In this document: in pieces, positions 625 through 24,156 of the stretch
Numbering within the stretch: position 1 is the first letter of the stretch
How the letters are laid out: every line of letters starts with the position of its first letter
Assembly (NCBI GenBank): GCA_016933415.1
Contig: JAFGAX010000206.1
Coordinates: forward strand, 1 to 47,268
Length of the DNA stretch: 47,268 nt
Direction of reading: 5' to 3'
Source of the DNA: a bacterium
GTDB taxonomy: Bacteria; Zhuqueibacterota; QNDG01; DTFT01
Notes under the pieces: model-generated
Database searches by the model: none
What the model saw: the letters and a program-made list of their open reading frames with translations, nothing else
Told to the model about the DNA's origin: nothing
Program-made: the position numbers and the translations under genes

Positions 625-3600
625 CTAGAGACCTTTCAGCACGTCGGTGATGTTGTCGCGCATTTTAACAGCCTGTTCTTTCATGTCCCCGTCGGGGCCT
701 TCCTTGATGAACCGCTGAAAATGAGAAAACGCCTTCTGCAGATCGCCCTTTCCGCGGTCCCCCGATCCCCCCTGGAACTTCTTGGCGGCCGACCGGAAGC
801 AACAGAAGCCGAGATAATAGACGCCGTGCAGGTTGTCCGGATCCCTTTTCAGAATATCCTCGAGGCAGGGAATCAGGCCTTCACATTTCTCCGGCGTGTC
901 CAGCTGGCCTGCGGGCGCGAGCGCGGCGGCCACCATGAGCTGGCGTTTATTTTCGATGACACCGGCTTCGTTCTCCTGCCGGGTCTCGCGTGTGTCCCCG
1001 GATTCGGCCCCGGAGGCCTTCGAAGCGGAGCGGAGGGCGGTCGTGATGTCCCCGTCAATGAGGGGAATCAGGGAATGCCCCTCGTCGGGTTTGCCCTTGA
1101 TCCATTGATGGTAAACGCCCAGTAATTCCTGAATGACGTTGAAGACGTCTGATGTCTTCTCCAGTTCCTTGAGGAGAAGATTCCGGGCGGTCTTGTATTC
1201 CTTCTTCCCCAGGGCGCCGGCGACCAGGGCGGAACCTTTCAGCTTCGCCAGGATCTCCCGGCTCTCCTTGACGCCCTTCGCGCTGAATCCCCGTTCGACG
1301 CATTTCTCCAGAAGGGGAACGGCCTCCTTCGCCTTTCCGATCCTCGAATAAAGCGCGGCGCACAACCGCGCGGGGCCCGTCATCTCGGGGAAATCGATGC
1401 ACCAGCGGCGCAACGCCGACACCGCTTCGAGTATCTTATCTTCCGGAAGGCTCCCCTCCCCGAAAATGGATTGTACGGATTCCGGATAGTAGGGACGCGG
1501 ATCGTCCAGCAGCCTCGCCAGGTTGCGGCCGTTCTCGTCCGGGCCTTTTTCCCACTCGGAGCAGATTTTCCTCCAGAACCTTTTCTGCGTTGAAAACGAG
1601 CCGCGGAGCGACTCGAACCGTTTCGGATCCGGTTTGTTGATGAGGGACCCCCAGATCCGCATGCAGATGATGGAGAGGAATGAATCGAGAAGTTCCGTCT
1701 TTCCCTGGAGCAGTTCGTGATATTCGTTGGCGACTTTTTTGACCGCCGATTCGACGATCTCCTTCTGGAACTGCGTCGGAATGTCGTTCAGACGATCGAG
1801 TATGGCCAGTGATTCGAACGATTTCAACTCCGTTCCCCAGTCGATGGTCGATCGGCGGGCCGAACCGTCATCTGCGGGAAGGTAGAAAAAGCCGTAGAAG
1901 AACTGGAATTTCAGCCTGTAGACGTCCTCGATCCACTGGATCAGCCGGCTTTCGTCGTCGTGGTAATACGGATTGTTTTCGAGGGTCAGCCCCTCGGTTT
2001 TTCCGCAAAACGCGACGGCGGATTGGAGCTTCGAGGCGCACGCGCCGCGGAATCCCCTGCCGATCCGTTCCGGCAGTTCGGGGAGAATCCGGTCGACGAA
2101 CTGGAGTAACGTGTCCGAGTATCCGATTTTCACCGGTTTGGCGCCGGGGTCGTCGGCGTCCTTTCCGTTCCCCTCCGGCGGCCGGCTTTTCTGCAGGGAC
2201 CGGTCGCAGCCCAGCAGAATGACGGGCGTCCGGATTTCGAACCAGCGATTGAGAAATTCCGCCTGTTTGTGGACGACAAATTCCTGGAGCGAGCCCGGAC
2301 TGTTGAGAAGGTCGATCAGCTTGCGGCCGCGGCCCTTGTGGTCGGGGGTCTTGTCCCGGCCGTCCCAGAGGAATCCGTTCGCGAAAGCCGACGCGAAATC
2401 CCGGTGAAACACGGACCGGTCGGCCGCGGAAACGCGCGGGTTGTCCGCGGCGATCGCGTGGAAGTACAGTACCTCGCAATAGGACTTCCAGGACAGAAGG
2501 GTCCTGCCGTGGTCCGAAGAGACGAGCGTGTCGGCCACGGCGATGTTTTTCAGGGCGGGCAGGCAGAGTCTGTCGATGGACAGGCAATTCCGCCAGATCT
2601 CGCGGGCCCGGTCCAGTCGGCCGAGGCGATGGAAGCCGCCGGCCGCCTTCATGTGAACGGAGAGCTCGAGGAGCCGCAGTTCGGGAAGGGAACGCTGCTC
2701 TTCGCTGTATTCTTCGAAAGTGGCCATGCTCAGGCCGACGACCCGGTCCATCTCCCCGTCCGTGATTTCGAGCGCCCGCCTCAGGCCAGTGAGTCCAGAC
2801 AGGGATGATGCGTCAATGCCGCTTTTGGACGGTTCCGATGCGCCCGCGGACGCCCCGGGCGCGGAGGCGGCCGCCGGAAGAGACAGTTTCAATAAGTGCC
2901 GGCCGAACCGGCCCTGCGCCGTCAGATGATCCTTGAAGCGGGATTCGAGTTCGGTCGACTTCCTTTCCAGGGTCTGATCCTGCGCGGCCCGGCGGCGGAC
3001 GGAGGAGATGCGCTGGACGGCCGATTCGCATTTTTTAGGCAGGGAGTCGATGAACAGCCGGATTTCCAGGGAGAGGGCGGCCTGTTCGGGCGTCAGCGTT
3101 CCGGAGGGTGCCCCGTTCCCGGTCATTTTCTTCAGGAGGGCCCAGTAGGATTCGATCCTTCCGGAGATGTCCTTGGATTCCGCCTCGAGCGCGTCCAGAA
3201 GGACCGCGGGGGATTCGGAAGCCTCCGGCTTCCCTTCCGGGGCGGGCAGCTCCGTCGCATCGATGGTCGAGGACCACTCCGCGAACCGGGGTGTGGCCGC
3301 TTCCGCCGGAGCTCCGGTCGGGACGGTCATGGCGGGCAGCCGGCCGCCGATCCGCGCATGGATCTTTTTCAGGTTTGCCGGCGGATTGAGCTCGTTGAAT
3401 GCCTTCTTGCATTCCTCCAGTTTCAGGGTGAAGGCGTTGCGCCGCATTTCCGCCGGCGCGGAGGGATGCAGCGCGGCGTCCAGATCCTCAGAGGGAATTC
3501 CGAGAATCTGCTTCTGAAGCCGGTCGACGCAGGCAACTCCGGCCGAGGCCGCTTCCGTAAGCCGGTTCAGGTCGCCGGTGAAAGTCTCGTAGTCCTTCCG

Positions 3601-4947
3601 GACCTGGGCGGCGGCCTCCGCGGCCGCGGCGGACTGCAAACGGGGCTCCAGGTCGCCCTTCAGCAGGTCGAAGCCCTCCTGGACCCGTTTTTTCAGATTC
3701 TGGTGGCATACATCAAGGCGGTTGAGAATGTCCCGGGCCGCTTCCGGCGTGACGCGCTGGATCTCGGCCTCCGGGGCGGCGTCGGCGATGGGCGCCGGGG
3801 GAGGGGTGTCCATGTTCTTCGCCGCGCTGATCAGCTTCTGGATCAGAACACCGGCTTTTTGTTCCGTTTCTGCGTCGGATTCGTCCCGGGCGGACGGGTC
3901 CAGAAGCTGCCGCGCAGAGCGGTACGCCCCGGTCGCGGGAAAATCGAACTTGCGCCAGAGCAGCCGGCTCTGATGAATCATCGCGATGAGCAGGGGCGGA
4001 AGCCCGCGCTCGGACAACGAATCGGACAGGGCCCGGGAAAGATTCTCGATCGGCGTTTCGAAAAGGGAACAGACATGATCCAGGAGTTCCAACGCCTCGG
4101 CGTCCGCGCTGGAATCGATTTTTCCCATCAGCCTCCGGATGGAAGCGACCGGGTATCCGATGATCATCCATTGGATCGCGATGACGACAAAGGCCGTGGT
4201 CCCCGCCCTTCGGGATCCGGCCTGCCGGAGAATGCCGTCCAGCAGGGGTTTGAGGGCATCCATCTGCCTGCGGCTGGCCCCCTGTTCGAGATTCCTCTCC
4301 GCTTCCAGGTCGATGACCCCGGACCACCGGCATTGATCCACGCCGCTCAGACGTTCGACGGTCCGTTCGTCCGGGGAATCCGTCTCCTTTCCGGATTTGA
4401 CGGAGGGTGCGCCGGCGCGCGGTGCCGCCGTTTTGCCGCCTTTCCGGGATTCAGCCTCGATGGAGGCGAGGCTTCTGGGCGGGGTGAAATTGAGAAGATC
4501 CTTTTCGAATGAATTTTCCCGTCCGCGGATTTTCAGGAATATCCGGTCCGCCTTTTTACGCAGGGCGTCGGGTTCATATTCCGAGTTGCCTGTGTAACGG
4601 TCGTTCAGTTCGTGCTGCAGAAGACCGATGTGGGCCCAGAGCCGGTGGCTGGTCGGACACAGCTTCACCGCTTCCTTCAGCCAGCGGACCGCCTGGTCCA
4701 GGCTGCCGAGGGACATGTGAATGCGGGAGAGATGATAGGCGTATCGGGGATTCGTGTCGTCGATGCCTCGGGCTTCCATGAGACGGGCGATCGCGTCCTG
4801 CGCGGCCGTTCGGGGGTGCAGGGCCAGCCGGAACAGAGACTCCGCGAGCGCCTCGGCGCATTCGAACGTACTGCCGGTTTTCCGTTCCCCGCGGAGTTTC
4901 TCGACGATCCGTTCGAGTCTGTCGATGTCGCAGATCATCTTTTTCAT
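625..4947 (-). CDS. giant TPR and coiled-coil protein (1440 aa)
   Basis: This is the last gene of the minus operon; it starts one base after the TIR gene stop, so it is probably translationally coupled. Residues about 35-130 look like TPR units (for example AYHLSRIHMSLGSLDQAVRW). A central part of about 400-720 is rich in charged helices and probably forms coiled coils. Further TPR-like segments lie near 1230-1300 and at the C-terminus (GVYYLGFCCFRSAAKKF). No signal peptide, membrane segment or enzymatic motif was seen. Such scaffolds often hold signalling complexes together, and here the obvious partners are the TIR, pseudokinase and chaperone genes of the same operon. Function is otherwise unknown; the long open frame and coupling make it a real gene. 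Confidence 0.85.
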   Translation of the reverse strand: MKKMICDIDRLERIVEKLRGERKTGSTFECAEALAESLFRLALHPRTAAQDAIARLMEARGIDDTNPRYAYHLSRIHMSLGSLDQAVRWLKEAVKLCPTSHRLWAHIGLLQHELNDRYTGNSEYEPDALRKKADRIFLKIRGRENSFEKDLLNFTPPRSLASIEAESRKGGKTAAPRAGAPSVKSGKETDSPDERTVERLSGVDQCRWSGVIDLEAERNLEQGASRRQMDALKPLLDGILRQAGSRRAGTTAFVVIAIQWMIIGYPVASIRRLMGKIDSSADAEALELLDHVCSLFETPIENLSRALSDSLSERGLPPLLIAMIHQSRLLWRKFDFPATGAYRSARQLLDPSARDESDAETEQKAGVLIQKLISAAKNMDTPPPAPIADAAPEAEIQRVTPEAARDILNRLDVCHQNLKKRVQEGFDLLKGDLEPRLQSAAAAEAAAQVRKDYETFTGDLNRLTEAASAGVACVDRLQKQILGIPSEDLDAALHPSAPAEMRRNAFTLKLEECKKAFNELNPPANLKKIHARIGGRLPAMTVPTGAPAEAATPRFAEWSSTIDATELPAPEGKPEASESPAVLLDALEAESKDISGRIESYWALLKKMTGNGAPSGTLTPEQAALSLEIRLFIDSLPKKCESAVQRISSVRRRAAQDQTLERKSTELESRFKDHLTAQGRFGRHLLKLSLPAAASAPGASAGASEPSKSGIDASSLSGLTGLRRALEITDGEMDRVVGLSMATFEEYSEEQRSLPELRLLELSVHMKAAGGFHRLGRLDRAREIWRNCLSIDRLCLPALKNIAVADTLVSSDHGRTLLSWKSYCEVLYFHAIAADNPRVSAADRSVFHRDFASAFANGFLWDGRDKTPDHKGRGRKLIDLLNSPGSLQEFVVHKQAEFLNRWFEIRTPVILLGCDRSLQKSRPPEGNGKDADDPGAKPVKIGYSDTLLQFVDRILPELPERIGRGFRGACASKLQSAVAFCGKTEGLTLENNPYYHDDESRLIQWIEDVYRLKFQFFYGFFYLPADDGSARRSTIDWGTELKSFESLAILDRLNDIPTQFQKEIVESAVKKVANEYHELLQGKTELLDSFLSIICMRIWGSLINKPDPKRFESLRGSFSTQKRFWRKICSEWEKGPDENGRNLARLLDDPRPYYPESVQSIFGEGSLPEDKILEAVSALRRWCIDFPEMTGPARLCAALYSRIGKAKEAVPLLEKCVERGFSAKGVKESREILAKLKGSALVAGALGKKEYKTARNLLLKELEKTSDVFNVIQELLGVYHQWIKGKPDEGHSLIPLIDGDITTALRSASKASGAESGDTRETRQENEAGVIENKRQLMVAAALAPAGQLDTPEKCEGLIPCLEDILKRDPDNLHGVYYLGFCCFRSAAKKFQGGSGDRGKGDLQKAFSHFQRFIKEGPDGDMKEQAVKMRDNITDVLKGL

Positions 4948-4948
4948 G

Positions 4949-6697
4949 CTATGCCTTTCCGAGGAGGGCCTGTAACCGCGATCCGTCGGAGATCCGGATC
5001 CCCTCCGGCGAACCGAGCGCCAGTGCGGTCATGCGGGGATCAAAACTGATCGTTCCGCCGGCGTGCGTGTAGACGATCTGGCTGTTTTTCAGGAGCGCGA
5101 ACGTGCCGTCCGGATAGATGAAGGTGGCATAGGCGTCGTCTCCCAGCGATCCGGCGCAGAAAGGCACGGCGCCCTGCGTCGAGTGGAACTTGTGGCGCGG
5201 GAGCAGCTGTTCGTCCAAAAACATCCCGCTGCCCGCGTCGTCCAGCGCCATGATCCGGTCGTTCAGCGGCATGGCGTGGAGGATGTTCGACAGATTGGAG
5301 CGCCAGGGCGTCATTATCACGTTGGGTACGTCGAATTGATAGAGTTTCTTCTCGCCGATGATCACGATGTGGTCCCTGAAGCATTTCATGCCGGCGATTG
5401 AATGTTCCACTGGAAATTGCCGGTCGGGCCGGTCGCCCTGATAGACGGTGAAACCGCCCTGGAAATCGACGATATAGACGTTGTGCCCGTCCGATTCGAA
5501 ATCCAGGATTCCCGCCGGATGCTTGAAGACCAGGGCCGTTTCGCCGGACGCGGGGTCCAGCCGGAGCAGGTCGCCGTTCCACATGCCGACGAGCATCTGC
5601 CCGCCGGCGAGAACGACGTTTCCGGGGATGGCGTACGTGGGCTCGTTCGGCTTGGGCGGGACTTCCCGGATTTCGCCGCTCTCGCGGATGAACAGGAGCC
5701 GTCCGCTCCACTCCGCGAGCACCATGCGGTCTCCGACGCTCCGGACGATCTTCGGCCTGGAGTGGATCGCCGACCGGCCGAGCGCAAGGCCGTTCCGATC
5801 GTAGAGCCGGATGGCGGAGGCGTCGATGACCGCGAAGGTCTTTCCGGACTCGAAGAAATAGACTCTCGACTCCCCGGGAGGGTCGCCGGCGGGAACGACG
5901 ACCCCCTGCGGACGGCCGCCTCCACCCGTGATCGCGGCCTCCTCCTTTTTCGTCTCCACAACGGAAAAAGCGGCGCTGGTGGCGGGCTGATAGCCTTCGG
6001 CCTTGGCCGTGAGGCTGACCCGGCCCGCGGGCTGCCGGAACGAAATGTCGGGGAAAACGGCCGTTCCGCCGGACGTTTTCTGCCTCAGCGTGCCCTGCAG
6101 ACCCTCGCAGTCGGCCGTCAATTCGACGATTCCCTCCTCGAATCCCGCCTGACCCCGGTCGGACAGCGCGACGGATACGGGCGGCAGCGTGATGTTGATC
6201 GCCGTGTCGGAGGGCTGGGTCGTCATTTCGAGAAGACGGATGTCCCGGGAGACGGACAGGCCAATGTTATGGATCAGGCGCGGGAACCAGTCATCGGGCT
6301 GTTCCTGAACGTCCAGGTAGTGGATGTGGTCGATGATGATGGGGATCTGGTCCTTGGCCTCGTGTTCCAGAAGAATCGGATTGATCTTGCCGGCCTTACC
6401 CGTCGGATCGGCCTGCAGCGCCTTCGTGAGTTCCCACCGCGTCATGCTTTTGGAGAAAAAAGTCCTGGAATACACGATGATCACGCGATGGCTGTTCATT
6501 ATCGCCTTGGCCAGCGCCTCCAGATAATTCTCCCCCGGTTTGACGCCCATGTCGGACTGGTCCAGAAACACCTTCGGGCGCTTTCCGTCGGGCATCAGGC
6601 ATTGGGTCAGGGGTGTGTAGAGGGAGTCTCGGACCCAGGCGTAATCCTCGCGCGCGTAGCTGATGAAGATGTCGTAGGTGAATTCGCTGTTTTCCAC
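4949..6697 (-). CDS. TIR domain protein with Ig-like and propeller-like C-terminal region
   Basis: Residues 6-150 form a TIR domain: YDIFISYAREDYAWV opens it, and VFLDQSDMGVKPGENY and RVIIVYSRTFFSKS follow. Glu89 in MTRWELTKAL aligns with the catalytic Glu of NAD-cleaving TIR domains (the WCxxE position), so NADase or cyclic ADP-ribose synthase activity is plausible. Residues about 175-245 look like an Ig or carboxypeptidase-regulatory-like beta domain. Residues about 275-582 consist of short beta-rich repeats such as VVLAGGQMLVGMWNGDLLRL, resembling a PQQ/WD-type propeller. The start is GTG with GAGAGG upstream. No signal peptide is seen, so it should be cytoplasmic. It is the most likely toxic effector or messenger producer of the operon. 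The TIR assignment is firm; activity is inferred. Confidence 0.92.
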   Translation of the reverse strand: MENSEFTYDIFISYAREDYAWVRDSLYTPLTQCLMPDGKRPKVFLDQSDMGVKPGENYLEALAKAIMNSHRVIIVYSRTFFSKSMTRWELTKALQADPTGKAGKINPILLEHEAKDQIPIIIDHIHYLDVQEQPDDWFPRLIHNIGLSVSRDIRLLEMTTQPSDTAINITLPPVSVALSDRGQAGFEEGIVELTADCEGLQGTLRQKTSGGTAVFPDISFRQPAGRVSLTAKAEGYQPATSAAFSVVETKKEEAAITGGGGRPQGVVVPAGDPPGESRVYFFESGKTFAVIDASAIRLYDRNGLALGRSAIHSRPKIVRSVGDRMVLAEWSGRLLFIRESGEIREVPPKPNEPTYAIPGNVVLAGGQMLVGMWNGDLLRLDPASGETALVFKHPAGILDFESDGHNVYIVDFQGGFTVYQGDRPDRQFPVEHSIAGMKCFRDHIVIIGEKKLYQFDVPNVIMTPWRSNLSNILHAMPLNDRIMALDDAGSGMFLDEQLLPRHKFHSTQGAVPFCAGSLGDDAYATFIYPDGTFALLKNSQIVYTHAGGTISFDPRMTALALGSPEGIRISDGSRLQALLGKA

Positions 6698-6749: not shown

Positions 6750-7616
6750 TTATCGGCCGAACCGGCGCAACGACGACTGGAAGTGGCCTGCCCGGACGAA
6801 ATCCATCAGGGCGTTGATTCTGTACGGGACGAACGGATGGCCGGCGTTCATGCTGATCGGCCCGGCGACCGGGGCCGTGGCCAGAAGCGGATATTGAACC
6901 GACAGGTATTTTTCAAGGTCCACGCGCCTGGCGAGCACCGCGCTTTTCAGCGCGACGGACAGGAGGGCGGAGGCGGCCTGTTTCCAGTCGCCGCACATCA
7001 GGAGGCCCATCCGGTCGCACCGGATCTCCATGCTCCGGCAGTTCGCCATGACCTGGCGGTACACGTTCATCCATTTCCGGCCGGGGAGAACGCGTTCCAG
7101 GGTCTCTTGCTGGTTGTTGTCCACGAGATCCCGGATCAGGAAGCCCAGCGACATGTCGCGGCTCCATTCCGATGTGTAGCTCAGCAGATGCCCCGTTTCA
7201 TGGCCGATCACGAAGGCCAGTTCCACCTCGCTGAGGCTTTCGACCAGGCGGGTTCCCAGCAGCATGATGGGGCGCTTCTGGCTGACCACGCTGACCGCGG
7301 ACCAGGAGTCGATTCCGCGGCGGCCCATGTCCGAGACGATGTACACCTCGGGTCTGGCCCATCCCGACTGGCTGTACAGGTATTCGAAAAGACGGTCCAG
7401 TCCGGGCAGCAGCCTGTAGTCGACCAGCAGTCCCCCGTCCAGGCCCATGATCCGGATCTTTTCGGTCCATTCGTCGTGCCTGGCCTCATAGCGGTCCAGG
7501 CCCGGCACCCGGGCCTCAACGGGGGTCAGGGGAACGGATTCCCAGAGCTGATTGAGATCGATGGCTCCCAGGCGGGGCAGGGATTCAATGCAGATGTCCT
7601 TGGAAGTGAGGTCCAC
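6750..7616 (-). CDS. M48-like zinc metallopeptidase without membrane segments
   Basis: The zinc motif HETGH is at residues 139-143 in VELAFVIGHETGHLLSY. A third zinc ligand is probable in MEIRCDRMGL near residue 206, the ExxxD pattern of M48 peptidases. The fold around it (PEVYIVSDMG, PIMLLGTRLVESLSE) also follows M48. Unlike HtpX or Ste24 it has no transmembrane helices or signal peptide, so it is predicted to be cytosolic. Translation starts at GTG, with GGGGCGG overlapping the stop of the upstream gene. Soluble peptidases in conflict operons can act as effectors or activate partners by cleavage; the substrate here is unknown. Confidence 0.88.
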   Translation of the reverse strand: MDLTSKDICIESLPRLGAIDLNQLWESVPLTPVEARVPGLDRYEARHDEWTEKIRIMGLDGGLLVDYRLLPGLDRLFEYLYSQSGWARPEVYIVSDMGRRGIDSWSAVSVVSQKRPIMLLGTRLVESLSEVELAFVIGHETGHLLSYTSEWSRDMSLGFLIRDLVDNNQQETLERVLPGRKWMNVYRQVMANCRSMEIRCDRMGLLMCGDWKQAASALLSVALKSAVLARRVDLEKYLSVQYPLLATAPVAGPISMNAGHPFVPYRINALMDFVRAGHFQSSLRRFGR

Positions 7617-7627
7617 GCCGGCCGCCC

Positions 7628-9727
7628 CTAGAGCACACCGTTGATCTGTTGGAGCAGACCGTCATACTGGTTGATCATCTGGCCGAGAGCCTCCTTGGCG
7701 CCCGCGGTGGTGACCGTCGACCGGGCCTTCTTGGCCTCGGACTGGGCGGCGGACACACGGTCCCGGAATCTCTGCAGCTCGTACCGGCTGGTGAACTTCG
7801 AACCGGACTTCAGGACCGCCATGATGGAGAGGAATTCCTTTCCGTGCTCGTCCACGACGGCCTTGTCCTTGAACTGCGAGCGGAAGGTGGTGCTCATCTG
7901 TTCGACCTGTCCGAGATTCCGGTCCACGGCCTGTTCCAGCTGGTCGAGGTTCTTCCGGGCGCCGTCCGTGATCAATTTCCGGTTCATGGCCGGGATGTCC
8001 CGTTTCAGCTTGCGCAGATCCTCGGTGATTCCCTCAAGCTTGGATTCCGAATCGATTCCCCCCTTCGCCCGCTCCATGATCGACTTGAAGCGTTCCGTGG
8101 CGCCGTTGATGACGACGACGTCCTTCTTCTGGTCTTCGATGACCTTGCTGAGGGACTGCAGGGCCTTCAGGTTGCGGTCCACGGCCTGATCCAGCTGAAG
8201 CAGAGTTTTCTTCGATTCGTCCAGGGCCATCTTCGGTTTCGCCTGGGTCACCTGTTTCTTGACTTCCTTCATCCGCTTGAACAATTCCTCGAGGACCTGG
8301 GGGCTGTCGATCCCCTTCTTGGCCCTCTCCATGATCGACACGAATTCCTTGATGATCGCGTTGACCCGGCCGATCTCCTCCTGACGCTTGAGGATGGCCG
8401 AGCGGAGGCCCGTGAAAAAGCCGATCGCCTGTTCGACCTGCGCCAGAAGCTGCGCGGGAACGGGCTGATCCGCATCGGCGGTGGCGAGTTTGGCGAACTG
8501 CCGGGTTTTTTCCAGCTCGGACAGGATCGTGTCGATGTCCGGCAGACGCTGTTTCTGGAAGGCGTCGTTGAACTGCCGGAAACGGCAGGCGGCGAGCAGA
8601 AAGCAGAGGAAGACATAATCCGGCGTAACCTGGAGGGCCGACATGAGCACCTGCTCGGCGCCGGCAAAATTTCCTCGGTTCATGTGCTGCTGGGCGACCA
8701 GGATTTCGTCCCGCACGATCAGTGACTGGAGCTTTTTCCTTTCGTCCAGCGACCCGCCCATTTTCACGTCGGCGATCTTTTTTGAGCCGCCCAGCCGGCC
8801 CAGCAGGCCGCCGGCGGAAAACTGCCGCAGGTAGGCGTCGAAGAGCGTGTATTCGACGGTTCCCTTGAAGCGGTCGTCCGCTTTTCCGAGCGCTTTCAGC
8901 GATTTCCCGAATTCCTCCTTCTTGAAATGCTGAATCGCCGGCTGAAGGGCGAGGTACAGGAGCTGGGATTCCAGATCGTTCTTCAGGCCCGTCAGGATCG
9001 GCGGCACGCGGTCGCCGGCGATCCGGATTCCCTCCAGGACGCATTCATACGCCGCGGGCACGTTTCGCTGTCCCCGGAGCACGATGGCCTTGAACGCGTA
9101 ATATTCGGCGCGCTGCGGATCCAGCTGCATCAGTTCGGTCAGCTGGGTGAAGAGGATGTTCGCGCTGATCATCATGAGGATGGGGAACTTGAGGTAGACC
9201 TGGCCGCAGGCCCTCGTTTTCAGGGCGGCGATCAGATCGTCGAGCGGCTTGCCCGTGCGGGCGGGATCGATCGAGGAAAGAATCCGCAGGGCGCTGATCT
9301 GGTTGTTCAGCGTGCCGATCGGCTTGTCCGTGTACAGGATGCACAGCGCCTTCAGGTACAGCGCTTCGGGGTGACCCTTCTTTTTAGCCAGATAGGCGTC
9401 GAGTTTTTGGGAGGCCGGCAGATACTCCTTCTTCTGGATGTGGGCCTTCGCCTCCTGAAGCAGGGCGAAGTCCACGTCGATGAGGCCGCCCGCGGTGAGA
9501 AGTGTGTCGTCCGGGAGGATTTCCCCAAGACGCAGCGAGTCGTCCGTCTTGGCGCTGTCGGCCATTTTGTTGATCTCGGCCTGAACGTCAAAACCGTCCA
9601 GCTTCGTCTTGCAGGGATCGATGACGGGGCCTTTGAGCACCAGTCCGCCTTCGATCTTGGGGATCGGGGTGGATACGGACAGCAGTTCCGGCGCGTCGAC
9701 GAACTTGTTTTCCGGGGCGGGGGCCAT
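7628..9727 (-). CDS. TPR and helical-repeat protein (699 aa)
   Basis: The track start at 9841 runs through the upstream gene; the ATG at 9727 (MAPAPENKF) has AAAGGATT ahead of it and is preferred. Residues about 110-330 contain TPR-like helices (AKAHIQKKEYLPASQKLDAY). The C-terminal third holds three related segments of about 90 residues, beginning FVSIMERAKKGIDS, FKSIMERAKGGIDS and FLSIMAVLKSGS; the first two share the ending QLxQAVDRNL. This looks like tandem duplication of a helical bundle. There are no enzyme motifs, signal peptide or membrane segment. It is probably a scaffold or adaptor. Confidence 0.8.
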   Translation of the reverse strand: MAPAPENKFVDAPELLSVSTPIPKIEGGLVLKGPVIDPCKTKLDGFDVQAEINKMADSAKTDDSLRLGEILPDDTLLTAGGLIDVDFALLQEAKAHIQKKEYLPASQKLDAYLAKKKGHPEALYLKALCILYTDKPIGTLNNQISALRILSSIDPARTGKPLDDLIAALKTRACGQVYLKFPILMMISANILFTQLTELMQLDPQRAEYYAFKAIVLRGQRNVPAAYECVLEGIRIAGDRVPPILTGLKNDLESQLLYLALQPAIQHFKKEEFGKSLKALGKADDRFKGTVEYTLFDAYLRQFSAGGLLGRLGGSKKIADVKMGGSLDERKKLQSLIVRDEILVAQQHMNRGNFAGAEQVLMSALQVTPDYVFLCFLLAACRFRQFNDAFQKQRLPDIDTILSELEKTRQFAKLATADADQPVPAQLLAQVEQAIGFFTGLRSAILKRQEEIGRVNAIIKEFVSIMERAKKGIDSPQVLEELFKRMKEVKKQVTQAKPKMALDESKKTLLQLDQAVDRNLKALQSLSKVIEDQKKDVVVINGATERFKSIMERAKGGIDSESKLEGITEDLRKLKRDIPAMNRKLITDGARKNLDQLEQAVDRNLGQVEQMSTTFRSQFKDKAVVDEHGKEFLSIMAVLKSGSKFTSRYELQRFRDRVSAAQSEAKKARSTVTTAGAKEALGQMINQYDGLLQQINGVL

Positions 9728-9971: not shown

Positions 9972-12014
9972 TCACCTCTTCTTGCCGGCTTCCTTGCGGG
10001 GGGCCGGTTTCGCTTTTCTGGGTTTTGCGGCGGGGGCCGCGTCCGGTTGCAGTATCTCGCGGGCGGCCGGGGACGGGTCCGGACCCGTCTCCTCCTCCGG
10101 CAGGAGCACTTCTCCCGTGTAGACCAGAACGCCGTTCACTTTTTTCTCCACCTGGTCGTAGGTGTTGCGGATGATCTCGGTGTTTTTGGAGATCTCTTCC
10201 ATGGATTCGGTCAATTCCTTTTCGGCCCTGGCGCCCCTTTCGTTCTCCTTTGAAGCGCCCGCCTTGATTGCGCTGATGATGGCGCCCATCCGCTTGCGGA
10301 TGAATTCCTGCCGGTTAGCGAGGCTCTGGATCGTCGGTCCCTCGGTGCCGGCGGCCTGATCGGGCGCGTAGAGGTCCGCCAGCCGGTTCTTGAAGCGGGG
10401 GAATGATTCGAGGCGGCGGACGAGTTTCTCCTTCATTTCCGGCGGAACGCTCTTGTTGTCCAGGTAATTTTTCACGATCGAAAAGTAGGTGTTCACCGAG
10501 TCTTTCTGGAGCTCGTCCAGCTTTCTCTCGCGCTTGATGATCAGATCCACCTCCGGGACGAGGGTACCCGATTTTTCGAGCCGGTCCAGGGCTTCATCGC
10601 GGAGCGTCTCCTGGAAGAAGTAGTAGTCGATGAGTCCCAGGATCAGCTTGGGATCCGGCATCTTCGGATCGATCGTCCAGACCCTGGCCACGCGGTCGTG
10701 CAGGGCGTCGCGTTCCTTCCGCGTCAGGCCCGATTTTTCGTCCTTGTCGAGCCATTGGTGGATCATGGACACCGCGTGCCAGAGAAGGATGTTCCGCAGC
10801 GTCCGGTCGTGATCGTCCAGAGAGGGTCCGGTTTTCGATTCGTCCTGCCCGGAGTCTTTCCCGGAGTCCTTCACGGTTTTCGGGGCTTTCTCTTTGACCA
10901 TTTCATCCTTGCGGCGGCCGTCCTCGAGCGTTCGAACGATGTCCGCGAGGGGTTGGTCCAGCGCGCTTCTCTCGCCGGAGCGCCAGCGGCACAGGAGCAG
11001 TCCGATTTCCGCGTTCGTCGAAGGCCGTTTCTCCGTCTTCGCCCGTTCCTTCGCCGCCTCGAAGAAATCCCTGGCCTGGGGCAGCTGGTTGTTGAAGAGC
11101 GAGATAATGCCCAGCGTCACCTGGTGGTCGCTGACGGAGGCCGGAACCCGGTCGGCGTGCACTCCCAGTTCGCGGACGCGGTCGAAATACTGAACGGCGG
11201 CCTCGATGTCCCGTTTCTTCCAGTGCTCCTTGCCGAGATTGAAGCAGGCGATGCTCATCAGTTTTTTCGCCTGGAGGTAGTCCCTGAGCTGATCCGTACT
11301 GGCGTTGTATCTCTCGTACGCTTCCGCGTATTTCTCCTGCTTCACCTTGGCCCAGAGATCGAGGTAGAGGAACGGCGTATCCGTCCGTTCGACAAGGGAA
11401 AGGTCGTCCACGGTTCCGGCGCAGTCGTCGCGGAGGGCCCGCAGGTAAGCGCGGGCGAAATAGGCCTCGTCGAGATCGGCTTTTTTCAGGCCGGCGGTGA
11501 TCGCCTTCGTCAGCAGCGTTTCGGCGAGCGGATACTCGCTCTTCTGCCCCTGGGCGATGATGTGAAGCGCCTGGAGGAGGGATTTCCGCTTTCGGGCGGG
11601 CTGAATCACCGAGAAAAAGAGAACGAGACCCAGGATCACCAGAATCAGGAATCCCAGCGCCGAAGCGCCGGCAAGGATCAGGCGGCGGTCGACACCCGAG
11701 AAAACGCCGGATTTCGATCCGGGCACTTCACCGGCGGGCGGCGCCACGGCGGACTCCGGGGAGGCGACGGACGGCTGTTCGGTCGCCCGGCCGGCCGCAT
11801 CCCGCGCCGCCGAGCTGTCGGCGGCGGCAATCGCTTCCCATGTGTGATCGGCCCTGAGCAGGACCTTCGAACCGTTCCCCGTCGTGACCAGTTCGTCCGC
11901 GCTCGACGGCGCGGCCAGACAGGCCAGGAGGAGCAGCAGCCGGGCAAGCGCGGACCCCGTCCTGTTTTTCGAAGACGGGTGCTTGTTTCGGCCGAACCGC
12001 CTCGGGTGTCCCAT
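9972..12014 (-). CDS. membrane-anchored TPR protein with small N-terminal exported domain
   Basis: Residues 1-39 are a signal-like segment (LARLLLLLACLAAPSSA). Residues 40-62 (VTTGNGSKVLLRADHTWEAI) resemble the short beta motif of DUF3157-like periplasmic proteins. A Pro/Ala/Ser-rich linker follows, then a transmembrane helix at about 111-137 (LGFLILVILGLVLFFSVI) and a basic stop-transfer stretch. Residues 140-680 are cytoplasmic TPR-type helices, ending in a Lys/Pro/Ala-rich tail. It could tether the operon's chaperone or TIR complex to the inner membrane. The start is ATG with AGAGGGAA upstream. Topology is well supported; the role is inferred. Confidence 0.8.
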   Translation of the reverse strand: MGHPRRFGRNKHPSSKNRTGSALARLLLLLACLAAPSSADELVTTGNGSKVLLRADHTWEAIAAADSSAARDAAGRATEQPSVASPESAVAPPAGEVPGSKSGVFSGVDRRLILAGASALGFLILVILGLVLFFSVIQPARKRKSLLQALHIIAQGQKSEYPLAETLLTKAITAGLKKADLDEAYFARAYLRALRDDCAGTVDDLSLVERTDTPFLYLDLWAKVKQEKYAEAYERYNASTDQLRDYLQAKKLMSIACFNLGKEHWKKRDIEAAVQYFDRVRELGVHADRVPASVSDHQVTLGIISLFNNQLPQARDFFEAAKERAKTEKRPSTNAEIGLLLCRWRSGERSALDQPLADIVRTLEDGRRKDEMVKEKAPKTVKDSGKDSGQDESKTGPSLDDHDRTLRNILLWHAVSMIHQWLDKDEKSGLTRKERDALHDRVARVWTIDPKMPDPKLILGLIDYYFFQETLRDEALDRLEKSGTLVPEVDLIIKRERKLDELQKDSVNTYFSIVKNYLDNKSVPPEMKEKLVRRLESFPRFKNRLADLYAPDQAAGTEGPTIQSLANRQEFIRKRMGAIISAIKAGASKENERGARAEKELTESMEEISKNTEIIRNTYDQVEKKVNGVLVYTGEVLLPEEETGPDPSPAAREILQPDAAPAAKPRKAKPAPRKEAGKKR

Positions 12015-12040: not shown

Positions 12041-13609
12041 TTACTTTTTAACGGCTGCCATCATTTTCTCGAGCCTCAGAATGGTGTTTCCGTAGACCTC
12101 GATCAACGACGGATCGAGGCGCCGCGGATCGGAGGCCGGATACCGGGCGACCGTGGACAGCGCTTTCTTGATGCCGTCCAGGAAGGTCCGGGCGGCGTCG
12201 AATTTTTCAGGATGGGCCGGAATTTCGCCGATCATGGCCTCCGCATACAAGAGGGTCCGGGGGAATTCCCACCACATGTATGTTGGGGGGGCCCCGGACG
12301 TGCCCGGATGATAGAGGTACGGATGAAGCACCTCCTGGGCTTGGATGAATTGGCCCGCCTTCATGAAAAAGGAAGTCACGGCCATGAAGAGCGTGTCCCG
12401 CTCCCGGACCGGAAGGGACTGAAAATTGCGCAAGGCCATGGCATGCATCTTCGATTGAGTGTCCACGAGGCTTTTCGACGCCCCCGCGGTGTCCCTCCGC
12501 GGCGGAGTTTGGAGAAGAACCGATAGTTGCAGACGTTGCGCCTCCAGGTTCCCGGCCGGGGCGGCCTGGATGGCTCTTTCGAACCATTCCAATGCGTTCA
12601 ACGGCTCCTGCAGGTTCTCCATGGCGATTTTTCCCGCCAGCAGGAGGAGATCGAACCGGCTTTCCCCGAGACACACGTCTCCGATGAAATCGACCGCCTT
12701 CTGATACTGTTTCCGGCCCCGCAGATCCTCCGCAACGGCCAGGGGATCCAGGCGGTCCGCCAGGAGCCGGAGCTTTTCGGAAAGCTGGGCGGGATTCGCG
12801 TCCGCCCGGGTCCGCGGATCCGGATCGAGCGCGGTCCGCACCATCCGGACGACCTCCGGATACAGGTCCACCCGGTCGATCCAGATGGGCATTCTCTGCA
12901 GCAAACCTTCCGGTTCGAACAGGGTGCCCGAGGCCGCCTTGCGCAGCATAAGGAACGGATCGTCCGGCTCCTTCCATGCAAAGAGGCACTGGAGCATCAT
13001 GACACCGCACGCAAAAAGGTCGAGCGTCCGGTCCCGGATCAACTGGCGGCTGCCGCGCACGAGTTCGGGCGCCAGGAAGGGAACGCGGGAGGGCTCGGCG
13101 ACCAGCGTTTCAAAACGGGGCCACAACCCGAGGGACGGAAGCGCCAGAAGCACGGGCCATTGCTGGTTGAAGACGATGTCCGCGGGCATGGGGAAGTTCG
13201 CGTCCCCATTCGTCTCCCACCAGTTGTTCAGCGCGCCCATGACTTTCGACATGAGGAAGAGGCGGCTCTGCGGATCCGCGTCCGTCAGCAGTCCGGACAG
13301 ACTCCGGCCGTTCGCCCGGTAGGTTACGAAAAAGAACAGACTGCCCCGGACCGGCACCTCGCCGGTTTCCTCGATGGGCGCCAGCCCCTGGCGGCACGGC
13401 TGATCCCGGCGCTTGTCTATTTCCAGGCGTTTCGACAGGTCCCGAACGTCCTCGATGGGAAGAAGCCGGAAATACCGGTTCCCGGAGGCCTCACGGTACA
13501 CGTGCCCCCGCATGCTCGGTCCCACGTATTCGAGACCCCTGCCTTCGCGGTCGAAGGGCAGCCCCTGCGGCAGGTTCAACGGGTCATTTCTTCGCGTCTG
13601 CGTAGACAT
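12041..13609 (-). CDS. pseudokinase-TPR protein
   Basis: Residues about 25-290 follow the protein-kinase fold. FLAPELVRG (near 180-188) carries the APE motif, and TLDLFACGVMMLQCLF is the alpha-F signature usually read as DxxxxG. The catalytic HRD Asp and the DFG Asp are absent: the equivalent stretch reads MPADIVFNQQWPVLLALPSLG. The protein is therefore predicted to be a pseudokinase. Residues 295-420 are TPR-like. The gene overlaps the end of the Hsp70 gene by 26 bases. The track start at 13615 is TTG; the ATG two codons later is preferred, with GGGAG upstream of both. It probably acts as a nucleotide-binding or scaffold module. Confidence 0.75.
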   Translation of the reverse strand: MSTQTRRNDPLNLPQGLPFDREGRGLEYVGPSMRGHVYREASGNRYFRLLPIEDVRDLSKRLEIDKRRDQPCRQGLAPIEETGEVPVRGSLFFFVTYRANGRSLSGLLTDADPQSRLFLMSKVMGALNNWWETNGDANFPMPADIVFNQQWPVLLALPSLGLWPRFETLVAEPSRVPFLAPELVRGSRQLIRDRTLDLFACGVMMLQCLFAWKEPDDPFLMLRKAASGTLFEPEGLLQRMPIWIDRVDLYPEVVRMVRTALDPDPRTRADANPAQLSEKLRLLADRLDPLAVAEDLRGRKQYQKAVDFIGDVCLGESRFDLLLLAGKIAMENLQEPLNALEWFERAIQAAPAGNLEAQRLQLSVLLQTPPRRDTAGASKSLVDTQSKMHAMALRNFQSLPVRERDTLFMAVTSFFMKAGQFIQAQEVLHPYLYHPGTSGAPPTYMWWEFPRTLLYAEAMIGEIPAHPEKFDAARTFLDGIKKALSTVARYPASDPRRLDPSLIEVYGNTILRLEKMMAAVKK

Positions 13610-15608
13610 CTTCAAGCGTGTCTCCCAGGTCTTCGAGCTTCTCGCCGGTGACCCCGGAATTCAGGGCGGTGATGAAATCGGTGAAAGCCTTGAGCAGGCC
13701 GGCGTCGATTTCCTTGAGGAGAAGCTTCTGCGACCGCCGTACGATGGACTTGAACTGCTCGGGCACGGGCACGGCGGGTTCCGGAATGGCGCCCGCGTCC
13801 GGCGTCGGCGGGGCGGGCTGTTCCGGGGCCGGAGCGGCCGGTGGAGCCGGGGAAGTCGCCGGCTGCGGCTGTGCCGGCTGTGTCCCGGGCACGGCGCCGG
13901 GCTGCGGGGGAGGCGTGAAACCGGCGGAGGACTGCGCCGCGGGGGTCTGGGCGCTGCCGTGGGCGTACAGTCCGAGCAGTTTGTTCCGCATCTGGCTCAG
14001 GGCGGCGTCCCCGCCGATGCCCGTCTTCTGTTCGAATTTCATCTCGTATTGCTTGCCGGTCTGCACGTGGAACACCACCATCGTGAGGAGCCCGTTGACG
14101 TCGAGTTTGAAGGTCACTTCGAATCGGTGGGTGTTCTGGGGCTTGGGCTCGATGTTCTCGATGAACAGATCCCCAATCGGCGTGTTTTCGAAGACGAATT
14201 CGCTCTCTCCCTGAAATACCGGGACGTGAATCCGCGTCGCATTCTCGGGATTGGTGAACATGTCGTTTTTGACCTCGATCGGGATATTGCTGCCCTGCTT
14301 GATCATCCGGACGCACTGGCCTCCCTGGACGCCGATGCCGAGGGAATGCTCGGTGATCAGCCGGATCTGCTGATCGTCGACCGACTGGGTGTTCAGCTTC
14401 AGCGTTTCGTTCCGGCGTTTGATGTCGAAGGCACCGTCGGTGGCGGCGAACCGTTTGGCCAGAATCGCCGCGCCGCGGGCGACCACGGTGTCCGGATTCA
14501 ACTCGCCGCGGACGAAGCTTTCATCCTTCTTGAAATAATCAAGCAGTATCTCCTTGACCTTGGGGATTTTGCTCGATCCGCCGACCAGCAGAATCGCGTC
14601 CACCTGGTCCCGGTCTATCCCCTTCTGCTCCCGGGCGTTGTTGATGGCGGTGTCGACGTACGTGAGTGATTTGCGCAGAAGGTCGTCGATGAGCGTCAGG
14701 AAAACGTCCTTCGTCAGAACCAGCTTGAGGTCGTGACGGATCGATTCCAGCAGCAGGGTCGTGGAATCGTTGTAGCTGAGGGCGATTTTGGCGGGTTCCG
14801 CGACCGACTTGATCTTCGCCCTTGCCAGCGGGTCCTGGCCGACGTCGATTCCCTGCTTGCGGAGTTCTTCGACCGCCCAGTCCACGATGGCGTTGTCGAA
14901 GTCGCCACCTCCGAGCCGGGGGTCCCCGGCCGTCGCGATGACGTTCAGGTTCCCCGTTTCCACCTGGATGATGGACACGTCGAACGTTCCGCCGCCGAGA
15001 TCGTACACGAGGTAGGTTTTTTTCTCCGTCTCCATGCGGTCCACCCCGTAGCAGATCGCCGCGGCGGTGGGTTCCGGAATGATCTGCCTGGGGAACAGCC
15101 CGGCGAGAAGCGCCGCCTCCTCCGTGGCCTTCTTCTGCGGCTCCTTGAAATAGGCCGGCACGGTGACCACCGCGTCGCGGATTTCCTCGCCGATTTCCCG
15201 TTCGGCCACTTCCTTCATCTTCATCAGGACGAAGGCGCTGATTTCCTGGGGAAGCATCCACTCGCCCGCGAAGTAAACCTTTACGGGATCCTGCAGCTTG
15301 AACACGCCCTGGGCCTTGAACCGTTCCAGGCCCTTGTTTTCGGGCGTGAACAGCTCTCCCATCTCCCGTTTGATCTCGATCACCGTGTCTTCGGGACGGA
15401 CGGGGAGATTGCGTTTCGCCGCTTCCCCCACGATGGCCTTGCGGAGCATCTGGTCCGTGCTGACGACGGAAGGCGTGGTCTCGGGATTCTGGTGCGATTC
15501 GGGATTCCGGATGATCTCCGCCTGTTCCGTGTATGTATTGTAGGAGGCCACGGCCGAATACGTCGTGCCGAGATCGATGCCGATCACCTTGTGCATTTTG
15601 TCGTTCAT
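13584..15608 (-). CDS. divergent Hsp70/DnaK-family chaperone
   Basis: The ATG at 15608 gives MNDKMHKVIGIDLGTTYSAV, the Hsp70 phosphate-1 motif; AGGAG lies upstream, and the track's longer start runs into the GrpE-like gene. Phosphate-2 (YDLGGGTFDVS) and the adenosine motif (LLVGGSSKIPKVKEIL) are intact, so ATP binding and hydrolysis are likely. The substrate-binding part starts at SLGIGVQGG. Residues about 556-617 are a Pro/Ala/Gln-rich linker of some 60 residues, unlike housekeeping DnaK, leading to a short helical tail (EQFKSIVRRSQKLLLKEID). The start overlaps the GrpE-like stop as ATGA. It is probably a dedicated chaperone for operon proteins rather than the housekeeping copy. Confidence 0.93.
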   Translation of the reverse strand: MNDKMHKVIGIDLGTTYSAVASYNTYTEQAEIIRNPESHQNPETTPSVVSTDQMLRKAIVGEAAKRNLPVRPEDTVIEIKREMGELFTPENKGLERFKAQGVFKLQDPVKVYFAGEWMLPQEISAFVLMKMKEVAEREIGEEIRDAVVTVPAYFKEPQKKATEEAALLAGLFPRQIIPEPTAAAICYGVDRMETEKKTYLVYDLGGGTFDVSIIQVETGNLNVIATAGDPRLGGGDFDNAIVDWAVEELRKQGIDVGQDPLARAKIKSVAEPAKIALSYNDSTTLLLESIRHDLKLVLTKDVFLTLIDDLLRKSLTYVDTAINNAREQKGIDRDQVDAILLVGGSSKIPKVKEILLDYFKKDESFVRGELNPDTVVARGAAILAKRFAATDGAFDIKRRNETLKLNTQSVDDQQIRLITEHSLGIGVQGGQCVRMIKQGSNIPIEVKNDMFTNPENATRIHVPVFQGESEFVFENTPIGDLFIENIEPKPQNTHRFEVTFKLDVNGLLTMVVFHVQTGKQYEMKFEQKTGIGGDAALSQMRNKLLGLYAHGSAQTPAAQSSAGFTPPPQPGAVPGTQPAQPQPATSPAPPAAPAPEQPAPPTPDAGAIPEPAVPVPEQFKSIVRRSQKLLLKEIDAGLLKAFTDFITALNSGVTGEKLEDLGDTLEDVYADAKK

Positions 15609-16414
15609 GATTCCGCTCCTTGACTGTTTTGTGAGGTGCTGTCCTGGCGCGAAAGGTTTTGCGGACCTTCGGAATCCGTCCGGTTCCTGCCCACGATCAC
15701 GCGGCAGGGCCGGACGATGATCTGCCCGGCCCTGTATCCGGACTGTTCGACGCGGAGAACGGTTCCCTCGCGTCCTTCGCCGTATCCGATGCATTCCATG
15801 CGCTGGGGGTCGAAATCGTCCCCCGGACGCACTTCGAAGGGCGCGTATCGGAGCGCCTGGGTGATGCCGGTGAGCAGGTCGAGCAGGGTTTCCGTGTTTT
15901 TAAGCAGTTCCCCGGCGTTTTCTCGCTGCTCGAGGTGTCGATGAATCGATCTCAGCGATTCCATGGCCGGCATCAGGGCGTTGAACGTCGAACGGCCGAT
16001 GAATTCTCTGCGGTCGGAGAGAAGGTTTTCCTTGAGGCGTTCCAGTTCCATCCCGACCGAGCGGGAAAGCGACTCCTGCGCCGTCCGGAGGGATGAAACG
16101 GTTTCGGCCAGTTGGGCGATTCTCCCGTCGATACTGGAGACCATTTTAAAGAGGCCGACCATGTCGTCCGCCAGCTCCCCCAGGGTGTCGTGCAGGTCGG
16201 CCTCTCCCGCGTTCCGGTCCGGTTTTTTCCGGAACAGCCCCGCCGGCTCCGTCAGGTTCATGCGGATCGTGTCGGAAAACCCGGCTCCGCCGATAGCGTC
16301 CCGTGCTTCATCCGTCTTCAATCCGTGCGCGGCCGGGGTTTCACCGGACGATTCGACGCGCGGTTCGTGCGGTGCCGTGTCCGGTTTCTCCCCGCCGGAC
16401 AACTTCTTCTTCAT
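15605..16414 (-). CDS. GrpE-like nucleotide exchange factor
   Basis: The C-terminal part GYRAGQIIVRPCRVIVGR matches the GrpE signature (GYxxxxxxxRPxxVxV), and the preceding helices (SLSRSVGMELERLKENLL) match the long GrpE coiled coil. At 269 residues it is longer than typical GrpE because of a polar N-terminal extension. The ATG at 16414 has GAGGAGG upstream and overlaps the J-like gene stop as ATGA; the gene in turn overlaps the Hsp70 start. The family exchanges nucleotide on DnaK, and the immediate neighbour is an Hsp70, so the pairing is strong. Confidence 0.85.
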   Translation of the reverse strand: MKKKLSGGEKPDTAPHEPRVESSGETPAAHGLKTDEARDAIGGAGFSDTIRMNLTEPAGLFRKKPDRNAGEADLHDTLGELADDMVGLFKMVSSIDGRIAQLAETVSSLRTAQESLSRSVGMELERLKENLLSDRREFIGRSTFNALMPAMESLRSIHRHLEQRENAGELLKNTETLLDLLTGITQALRYAPFEVRPGDDFDPQRMECIGYGEGREGTVLRVEQSGYRAGQIIVRPCRVIVGRNRTDSEGPQNLSRQDSTSQNSQGAES

Positions 16415-17031
16415 GATTCCTCCTCGTCGATCCGCTGGTTGTATTCGTAGTCCGATGTGAAGATTCTGCGGGTCAGGTCGCTGGGGTGAAAACAATGGAT
16501 GTTCTTTTCCTCTTCAAGAAAACGGGAGAATTCTTTTCTGGCGTAAAAGAGCAGGGTCCGGAAGTCCGTCAGAACATCCGCCCGGAATTCCTCGAAACGC
16601 AGCAGAATGCAGGGGGGCGTGGAGAGGTCGTATTTCTGCCGCTCCTCCCTTTTTTCCAGTTCGATCAGGTTGATGTCGTTCACTTCCCGGTCAATGCGGC
16701 CGAGGTCGGATTCGATCTTCCTGAAATCGGGATCGATTCGGACGGCCTCCTTTTCCAGCGCGGCGATTTCCGAATGGAGTTTCTTGAGCGCGGACGGGTC
16801 CGTCTTTTCGGCGCTCTTGTTCATCGTTTCCAGCCGGCTCCGGGCCGTCTCGAGCCCGGGCACCGCCTCGTAAATCCCGGCCCGTCTCTTTTCGAGCATC
16901 TGTTTCCTGGCGCCGAGGGATTGAAGGATTTCGCCCTTGGCGTCCTGGATGTCGTTGGCGGTCGCATCGGGTTTCAGGCCGAGCTTCGCGTAGGACGTGT
17001 CCCGGCTGAGGATCAGGGGAAAATGGAACAT
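16411..17031 (-). CDS. J-domain-like protein lacking HPD, coiled coil
   Basis: Residues about 10-45 (SYAKLGLKPDATANDIQDAKGE) resemble helices I-II of a J domain, but no HPD tripeptide follows. Residues 50-140 form a charged coiled coil. The last 65 residues (FEEFRADVLTDFRTLLFYARKEF) are another helical segment. It is first in the operon, ahead of the GrpE-like and Hsp70 genes, which favours a degenerate co-chaperone. Without HPD it should not stimulate Hsp70 in the usual way. AGGGAGAA lies upstream of the ATG. The J-like call is tentative; the gene itself is secure. Confidence 0.7.
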   Translation of the reverse strand: MFHFPLILSRDTSYAKLGLKPDATANDIQDAKGEILQSLGARKQMLEKRRAGIYEAVPGLETARSRLETMNKSAEKTDPSALKKLHSEIAALEKEAVRIDPDFRKIESDLGRIDREVNDINLIELEKREERQKYDLSTPPCILLRFEEFRADVLTDFRTLLFYARKEFSRFLEEEKNIHCFHPSDLTRRIFTSDYEYNQRIDEEES

Positions 17032-17368
17032 CGGTCGTGAGTTCTCCCTTCTGTCCGGCGACCGAATGCGCCTTTCAGGGACGGAAATCGCTGCGGAAAA
17101 TGATAACTGGGGAATCCCCTTCTGCCGCCACCGAAGAGGATGGATGTCAAGGGCCGACCGCGGCTGACGTCTTCCGCTGCCGACAATCGTTGCCGGAAAT
17201 CCTCTCTCCGCGTTTCAGGGATGGGATGGACGTCCGGGGCTCTATCAATAGAAACAGCTGTTGGCTTTAAGCGAAAAAACACAATGTCACACCAATAGTA
17301 TTGATATTTTATCCGAAAATCAAGAAAAATGTACTCTGACTTGACGATTGCGGGCCGCACGTCGGGAA
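17032..17368 (-). other. 337-base intergenic region with operon leader
   Basis: No credible gene lies here. It contains a predicted minus-strand promoter (17295-17323) and a leader of about 257 bases before the J-like gene. The palindrome GGGGAATCCCC is at 17109-17119, and its AATCCCCT half also occurs in the inverted repeat at 24015-24047. The AT-rich part (17240-17345) contrasts with the GC-rich genes. I found no clear terminator for the upstream four-gene operon. Confidence 0.6.
17295..17323 (-). promoter_or_regulatory. predicted sigma70-type promoter of the ten-gene chaperone/TIR operon
   Basis: Read on the minus strand, TTGATT (17323-17318) is followed after exactly 17 bases by TACTAT (17300-17295), in a locally AT-rich stretch. 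Transcription would begin near 17288, leaving a long leader ahead of the first gene. The same TTGATT -35 with a 17-base spacer occurs at the promoter of the divergent AAA+ gene. Confidence 0.55.
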
Positions 17369-18499: not shown

Positions 18500-18506
18500 G
18501 GCTGCG

Positions 18507-20630: not shown

Positions 20631-20646
20631 GGCGCACCGCCCGGTT

Positions 20647-21660: not shown

Positions 21661-21676
21661 GACGTCCTCCCTGGAT

Positions 21677-23947: not shown

Positions 23948-23991
23948 GCGTTCCCCCGTGTGTGTGTTGAGTTGGCTCCATCCGATCATGG

Positions 23992-24006
23992 ACAAAAAAA
24001 GGGCCA
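23992..24006 (-). promoter_or_regulatory. possible sigma54-type -24/-12 promoter for the AAA+/MoxR/VWA operon
   Basis: Read on the minus strand, TGGCCC is followed after five bases by TTGT, close to the TGGCAC-N5-TTGC consensus with two mismatches and correct GG-to-G spacing. Transcription would start near 23980, about 33 bases before the ATG at 23947. No convincing sigma70 promoter was seen on this strand. The divergent gene encodes a sigma54-activator-type AAA+ protein, which adds context but not proof. Confidence 0.35.
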
Positions 24007-24014
24007 TCCTGCAC

Positions 24015-24047
24015 AATCCCCTGAAAAACATCCGACTACAGGGGATT
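24015..24047. promoter_or_regulatory. perfect inverted repeat between divergent promoters (operator candidate)
   Basis: AATCCCCTG at 24015-24023 and CAGGGGATT at 24039-24047 form a perfect 9-bp inverted repeat with a 15-base spacer. It lies between the predicted divergent promoters. The AATCCCCT core recurs at 17113-17120 in the leader of the second minus operon, suggesting a shared regulator. Confidence 0.5.
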
Positions 24048-24066: not shown

Positions 24067-24095
24067 TTGATTTAGGCGGTGAAATACGCTATATT
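24067..24095 (+). promoter_or_regulatory. predicted sigma70-type promoter of the AAA+/Nudix/RSH operon
   Basis: TTGATT at 24067-24072 is followed after exactly 17 bases by TATATT at 24090-24095. Transcription would start near 24102, 55 bases before the ATG at 24157. This excludes the track start at 24079, which lies inside the promoter. Confidence 0.65.
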
Positions 24096-24156
24096 CAACA
24101 ATATTCGCTTTCCAAGATCAACCGCCCCGATTCAAACATCACGCCTCCGGAGGGAT

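Follow-up and report, generated by a model that had tools for sequence, protein, structure and literature searches.

The window, by which we mean the whole 47,268-nt stretch of DNA that was analysed, carries at the head of a TIR operon a dedicated Hsp70 accompanied by a GrpE and by a J-like protein without the HPD motif. The genes for Hsp70 and the HPD-less J, in most cases with GrpE, make up one inherited block with those for a pseudokinase, a probably membrane-anchored TPR protein, the TIR protein and a large TPR protein, and this TIR-Hsp70 operon is common to at least four bacterial phyla. At the level of sequence, both halves of the standard J/Hsp70 trigger are gone: the HPD on the J protein, and R167, N170 and D393 (DnaK numbering throughout for these positions) on Hsp70. 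We consider it about an even bet that the set works as a dedicated switch in which Hsp70 is coupled without the HPD, and which would hold an operon client within a membrane-linked TIR system.

All genes of the block lie on the minus strand. The J-like protein (17031-16411, 206 aa), the GrpE-like nucleotide exchange factor (16414-15605, 269 aa; PF01025, E=2e-12, with 47.4 bits against a Pfam cut-off of 25.8) and the Hsp70 (15608-13584, 674 aa; PF00012, E=9e-119) are joined by two ATGA overlaps, exactly as a preliminary description of this DNA had placed them: the TGA of the J-like gene (16413-16411) falls within the GrpE ATG (TCATGAAG), and the GrpE stop falls within the Hsp70 ATG at 15608 (TCATGAAC). 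As a gap of 337 nt (17032-17368) lies upstream, J is the first gene of the block; the homologous loci likewise open with J, in agreement with the earlier view that the triad leads the TIR operon. Within this gap, no sigma-70-like site was found on the minus strand, and matches to the sigma-54 pattern were fewer than expected by chance. At the other end, about 26 nt are common to the 3' end of the Hsp70 gene and the start of the next one. Downstream follow, in order, a pseudokinase-like protein with repeats (12041..13609; APE present, HRD and DFG absent); a TPR protein (9972..12014) with an N-terminal signal-like segment and a TM helix at aa 110-128, which is probably membrane-anchored; a second TPR or helical protein (7628..9721, exact start uncertain); an M48-family metallopeptidase with HETGH, optional in the family (6750..7616); the TIR effector (4949..6697); and a 1440-aa TPR protein, the final gene of the conserved block (625..4947).

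An exact DNA pattern for PEPTAAA-x-CYG, applied to one genome per species, retrieved eight loci. The block recurs with unchanged gene order in two further KSB1 genomes, namely G011 (Hsp70 73%, J 58%) and, without M48, G037 (Hsp70 54%, J 33%). Among the eight loci, Deltaproteobacterium SM23_61 has the complete block including M48, and Gemmata shows J-GrpE-Hsp70 at a contig edge. Nonomuraea and Winogradskya present J-Hsp70-pseudokinase-TPR-TIR-TPR, with the second TPR protein and the Hsp70 C-terminal domain also absent from Winogradskya; because GrpE is missing in both of these actinobacterial operons, the triad as such is not obligatory. Overall, the gene order J-(GrpE)-Hsp70-pseudokinase-TPR-(TPR)-(M48)-TIR-TPR is kept in three KSB1 genomes, SM23_61, Nonomuraea and Winogradskya. 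The distribution is patchy, with the Hsp70 family found in 3/82 KSB1 genomes and in 1/101 genomes of the Nonomuraea order, and within KSB1 the genomes with relatives of the TIR protein are precisely the three that have the Hsp70. A search of 8 genomes of one class and 101 genomes of one order brought up no new member, nor were homologues found in viral contigs, a weak test that used only two short patterns each.

Phylogenetic analysis against housekeeping DnaK placed the seven family Hsp70s in one clade of their own (100/100), outside 40 other Hsp70s. Moreover, the window Hsp70 reaches 388 bits against the DnaK equivalog TIGR02350, below the cut-off of 822. The preliminary description had held that its idea of a specialised chaperone would fail if this were the only DnaK in the genome. 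Taken literally, that is what the search returned, as the window Hsp70 is the only HSP70 match in its metagenome-assembled genome (MAG). However, this MAG is 76% complete and the whole housekeeping set is missing from it (dnaK, grpE, and dnaJ or any HPD-bearing J protein), probably through the loss of one contig, so the finding does not count as a refutation. A congener (G001) has a full DnaK of near 900 bits, an HSP70-family match is present in all 30 of the good relatives, nearly always a full DnaK, and a second, normal Hsp70 is present in G011, in G037 and in each of the four carriers that lie outside KSB1.

It is common for a dedicated chaperone to be encoded next to its clients, and the operon does encode several large repeat proteins (1440, 697 and 680 aa). 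The Hsp70 set could then serve only to aid folding or assembly of the large TPR and TIR proteins, with no regulatory holding. Against this stand the housekeeping DnaK that the other carriers already have, as well as two features described below, the specific disappearance of the J trigger from J and Hsp70 alike and the altered substrate arch, which suggest more than generic folding; a mere folding helper is, in our judgement, a somewhat unlikely account of the operon.

The absence of HPD from the J-like protein had been recognized before, and it extends to all seven J-like homologues, which thereby fall outside J-domain classes A-C. The window protein gives no Pfam DnaJ match of its own, and not one J member of the family rises above the Pfam DnaJ threshold (best E=0.034). 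In the AlphaFold2 model, built from seven homologues and of moderate quality (mean pLDDT 74.8, pTM 0.52), helices are predicted at residues 13-17, 25-56, 60-72, 79-99, 103-122 and 128-137. Here, J helices I/II (13-17, 25-56) and III/IV (103-122, 128-137) flank a coiled-coil hairpin (about aa 46-100; 16732..16896) inserted at the site where the HPD would be expected. A Foldseek search of this model against the PDB returned coiled coils only, nothing significant. Such results could also mean that the protein is an unrelated coiled coil, with housekeeping DnaJ acting as the partner of the Hsp70, a reading we hold to be very unlikely. When residues 46-99 were removed, the J-like profile aligned end to end with the J domains of seven relatives' DnaJ, from 'Y-LG' to 'R-YD' and thus across helices I-IV, with an hhalign score of 29.3, compared to at most 17.3 in 200 column-shuffled controls; service by DnaJ would, in addition, need R167 and D393, which this Hsp70 lacks. 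With the insertion kept, helices I/II alone align to DnaJ (E=0.0027). Based on the profile alignment, which beats the shuffles, and on the helix pattern of the model, we read the J-like protein as a type IV (HPD-less) J domain whose HPD loop has been turned into a coiled-coil hairpin. The two actinobacterial J proteins have no hairpin insertion and no HPD either, and HPD loss is therefore independent of the insertion. A relocated HPD at the J C-terminus ('FHPSDLTR') was considered and rejected, as both H and P vary in the homologues (RPSD, HASD, VPTD).

On the Hsp70 side, it has been reported that D35 of the HPD contacts R167 while H33 contacts the interdomain linker at L391 (PMC13012618), and that R167 pairs with D393 within Hsp70 (PMC7289447). 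All seven family Hsp70s have Q at 167, P at 170 and L at 393 (Y in Winogradskya), whereas these positions are R, N and D in 41/41 other Hsp70s, a comparison set that excludes two highly aberrant Hsp70-like proteins (L070 and L071). The first of these, of about 823 aa and found on contig C5 of genome G022, has P, Q and D there. In the window, the site corresponding to DnaK R167..N170, which reads the HPD in DnaK, is Q175..P178 (15075..15086), and the interdomain linker is QQIRLITEHSL (aa 413-423; 14340..14372), with L417 in place of D393. Seven of the 19 family-diagnostic positions fall within two HPD/linker-contact segments against 1.8 expected, where p=3e-4 serves as a guide only, the segments having been picked after the substitutions were seen. 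Since the seven homologues are related by descent, the co-loss represents one event in the clade and not seven.

The ATPase motifs, in turn, are intact as previously described (D8, T11, K70, E171, T199 and D201), and the protein is a member of the Hsp70 family by its Pfam match and by a model with a nucleotide-binding domain (NBD) and a substrate-binding SBD-beta. In the substrate arch, position 404 is Q in 7/7 family members and position 429 is N in 6/7, the seventh falling at a masked stretch, while elsewhere 404/429 are mostly L and A; for this reason, the choice of clients has probably changed. The conserved gene order in several phyla, the separate clade and the altered J-contact, linker and substrate-arch residues all favour the specialised, operon-dedicated chaperone proposed in the preliminary description.

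An additional possibility is that the Hsp70/J pair mimics the host chaperone as a decoy or sensor, to which phage factors that seize chaperones, or an excess of unfolded phage proteins, would bind and so set off TIR. The patchy distribution fits such a role, phages do depend on DnaK/DnaJ, the defence protein bNACHT25 is activated through DnaJ (PMC12169576), and decoys in conflict systems have been discussed by Kaur et al. (PMC7159879). A decoy would nevertheless be expected to retain the J-binding surface used by phages, which is altered in this Hsp70, as is its substrate arch, and we deem it unlikely.

The Hsp70 model further comprises, after the NBD and SBD-beta, a disordered Pro/Ala-rich tether (residues 552-605, pLDDT 30-40; 13794..13955), matching the low-complexity linker noted earlier, and a predicted three-helix domain at residues 617-673 (pLDDT mostly 86-95; 13590..13760) that is kept in five homologues. 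The 'short tail' of the preliminary description is thus present, but the adjective undersells what is predicted to be a folded domain on a tether. Comparison of this domain with housekeeping SBD-alpha by hhalign gave E=0.037 over 13 columns, and lid homology is not established. Together with the TPR scaffolds and the coiled-coil J, the tethered domain could suggest that Hsp70 and J are structural parts of a large assembly, with nucleotide state controlling assembly only; multimeric HSP70 assemblies have been proposed for tubulin/HSP70 systems (Kaur et al., PMC7159879). Even so, retention of the ATPase residues, of SBD-beta and usually of GrpE suggests that cycling matters, and we find a purely structural role improbable.

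Regarding the effector, the TIR protein combines a TIR fold with a putative catalytic Glu: it matches TIR_2 (E=3e-18), and E89 is invariant in six homologues. From its sequence, the remainder was read as an Ig-like part and a beta-propeller-like C-terminal part. It is likely a suicide or defence protein, and the invariant Glu predicts that it may cleave NAD+. With PADLOC 2.0, no strong match to known anti-phage system proteins was obtained; PDC-S66 was matched at the level of the TIR domain only (E=2e-9), others being weak.

Several known systems resemble parts of the operon. The GAP1-N2 GTPase conflict systems (Kaur et al. 2020, PMC7159879) also have their own HSP70, GrpE and DnaJ-domain/TPR protein, also occur in Actinobacteria and are membrane-linked. 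The TIR-Hsp70 block, by contrast, has TIR as effector and lacks TRAFAC GTPase, FNIII and tubulin and, as far as the profiles used can tell, GAP1, its J protein is HPD-less and free-standing, and it includes pseudokinase and M48 parts. No match to a GTPase family was found among genes 625-36624. Compared with housekeeping DnaK/DnaJ/GrpE, the family shares the NBD and SBD-beta of Hsp70, the ATPase residues and GrpE, but differs in the missing HPD, in R167Q, N170P and D393L/Y, in the changed substrate arch and in having SBD-alpha replaced by the Pro/Ala tether and three-helix domain. Type IV J-like Pam16/Magmas also presents a J-like fold without HPD beside an Hsp70, and Magmas cannot stimulate mtHsp70 and instead regulates the true J partner (PMC8605242). 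However, Pam16 has an HPD-bearing J and a normal Hsp70 as its partners, whereas the window encodes no HPD J and the TIR-operon Hsp70 is itself devoid of the residues that read it. Phage defence by bNACHT25 is, like the proposed TIR system, a case of a bacterial immune effector relying on Hsp70/J for sensing, as it requires DnaJ and is not restored by DnaJ H33Q or D35N; it differs in using a host DnaJ with intact HPD, encoded outside the defence operon (PMC12169576). Finally, the effectors of Thoeris, retron-TIR and PADLOC PDC-S66 have a TIR domain related to that of the operon. The operon TIR differs from all of these in its fusion to Ig-like and propeller-like parts and in the chaperone encoded beside it, and Thoeris or retron partners are absent from the block.

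In the dedicated-switch reading, the J-like protein would dock Hsp70 onto operon clients, as an adaptor and not as an HPD-type ATPase trigger. Hsp70 would remain bound to its client for long, with housekeeping DnaJ unable to discharge it and with its folded C-terminal domain riding on the flexible tether, and GrpE, where present, would reset it. The likeliest client would be the TIR protein, or a pseudokinase/TPR scaffold presenting it; TIR as the client is our guess, and the pseudokinase or TPR proteins are equally likely. As the preliminary description had suggested as a possibility, Hsp70 would keep TIR inactive, presumably at the membrane; on displacement of Hsp70 by infection or proteotoxic stress, the freed TIR would destroy NAD+ or signal. 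The fuller proposal, in which J and Hsp70 have both given up the HPD-R167/D393 trigger for a different coupling and Hsp70 serves specifically to lock a TIR death effector, is put forward only tentatively.

J-protein action is defined by the HPD motif, and the HPD-R167/D393 trigger has so far been treated as universal. A long-conserved Hsp70/J pair without HPD and without its readers therefore asks whether Hsp70 can be controlled otherwise. It suggests that bacteria may have placed death effectors of the TIR type, and perhaps of the caspase type, under a built-in Hsp70 switch, an idea that fits recent evidence of bacterial NLR-like immunity monitoring the DnaJ/DnaK system. In the literature, which was covered in part, no account of this operon or of the joint loss of HPD and R167 was found.

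The same DNA pattern also marked two Thermoanaerobaculia loci (L058, 5964-12684, and L059, 996-6889), each with a lid-less Hsp70, a GrpE and a caspase-domain (C14) neighbour. One of the two GrpE proteins is a fusion with TPR, and the C14 domain was identified by a scored match at one locus and by reading of the sequence at the other. A J-like protein was seen in one of the two (L058), with NQD at the HPD position and an hhalign score of 21.3, compared to at most 16.0 in shuffles. In both Hsp70s, positions 167, 170 and 393 are occupied by Y, P and N. As the tree joins them with the TIR-operon family (96/97, on long branches), the caspase-linked and TIR-linked sets may derive from one ancient loss and not two. 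If the lock reading is true, the caspase-linked version would make it a general design of bacterial immunity.

The surroundings of the block also deserve description. The MoxR/vWA genes upstream of it in the window (18507-21660), together with the neighbouring AAA gene, are absent at the G011 and G037 loci, and were for that reason rejected as part of the TIR-Hsp70 block. They belong to a minus-strand stretch (17369-24031) encoding a MoxR-like ATPase, a vWA-like protein (DGSGS), a 376-aa protein without Pfam match and an AAA_2 ATPase, which has the appearance of a conflict module of the MoxR-vWA type, separate from the adjoining TIR operon. Divergent from the AAA_2 gene, the plus strand carries a sigma-54 activator with the loop GAFTDA, not GAFTGA (24079-25812), followed by a NUDIX protein and a single protein with RelA/SpoT, SLOG (LSDAT) and RyR domains (25837-28759), and by a 1604-aa protein with 15 PKD repeats (29459-34273). 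At the SM23_61 locus, a RyR-AAA protein and a SLATT-type 2TM protein lie beside the TIR/Hsp70 block. On contig C62 of G037, two HATPase (Hsp90/sacsin-like) proteins and a degenerate sigma-54-type AAA protein are encoded just upstream of J-GrpE-Hsp70 (L036, 1053-4835), and a second TIR-TPR protein is found near the TIR-Hsp70 operon (L035, 300-1847).
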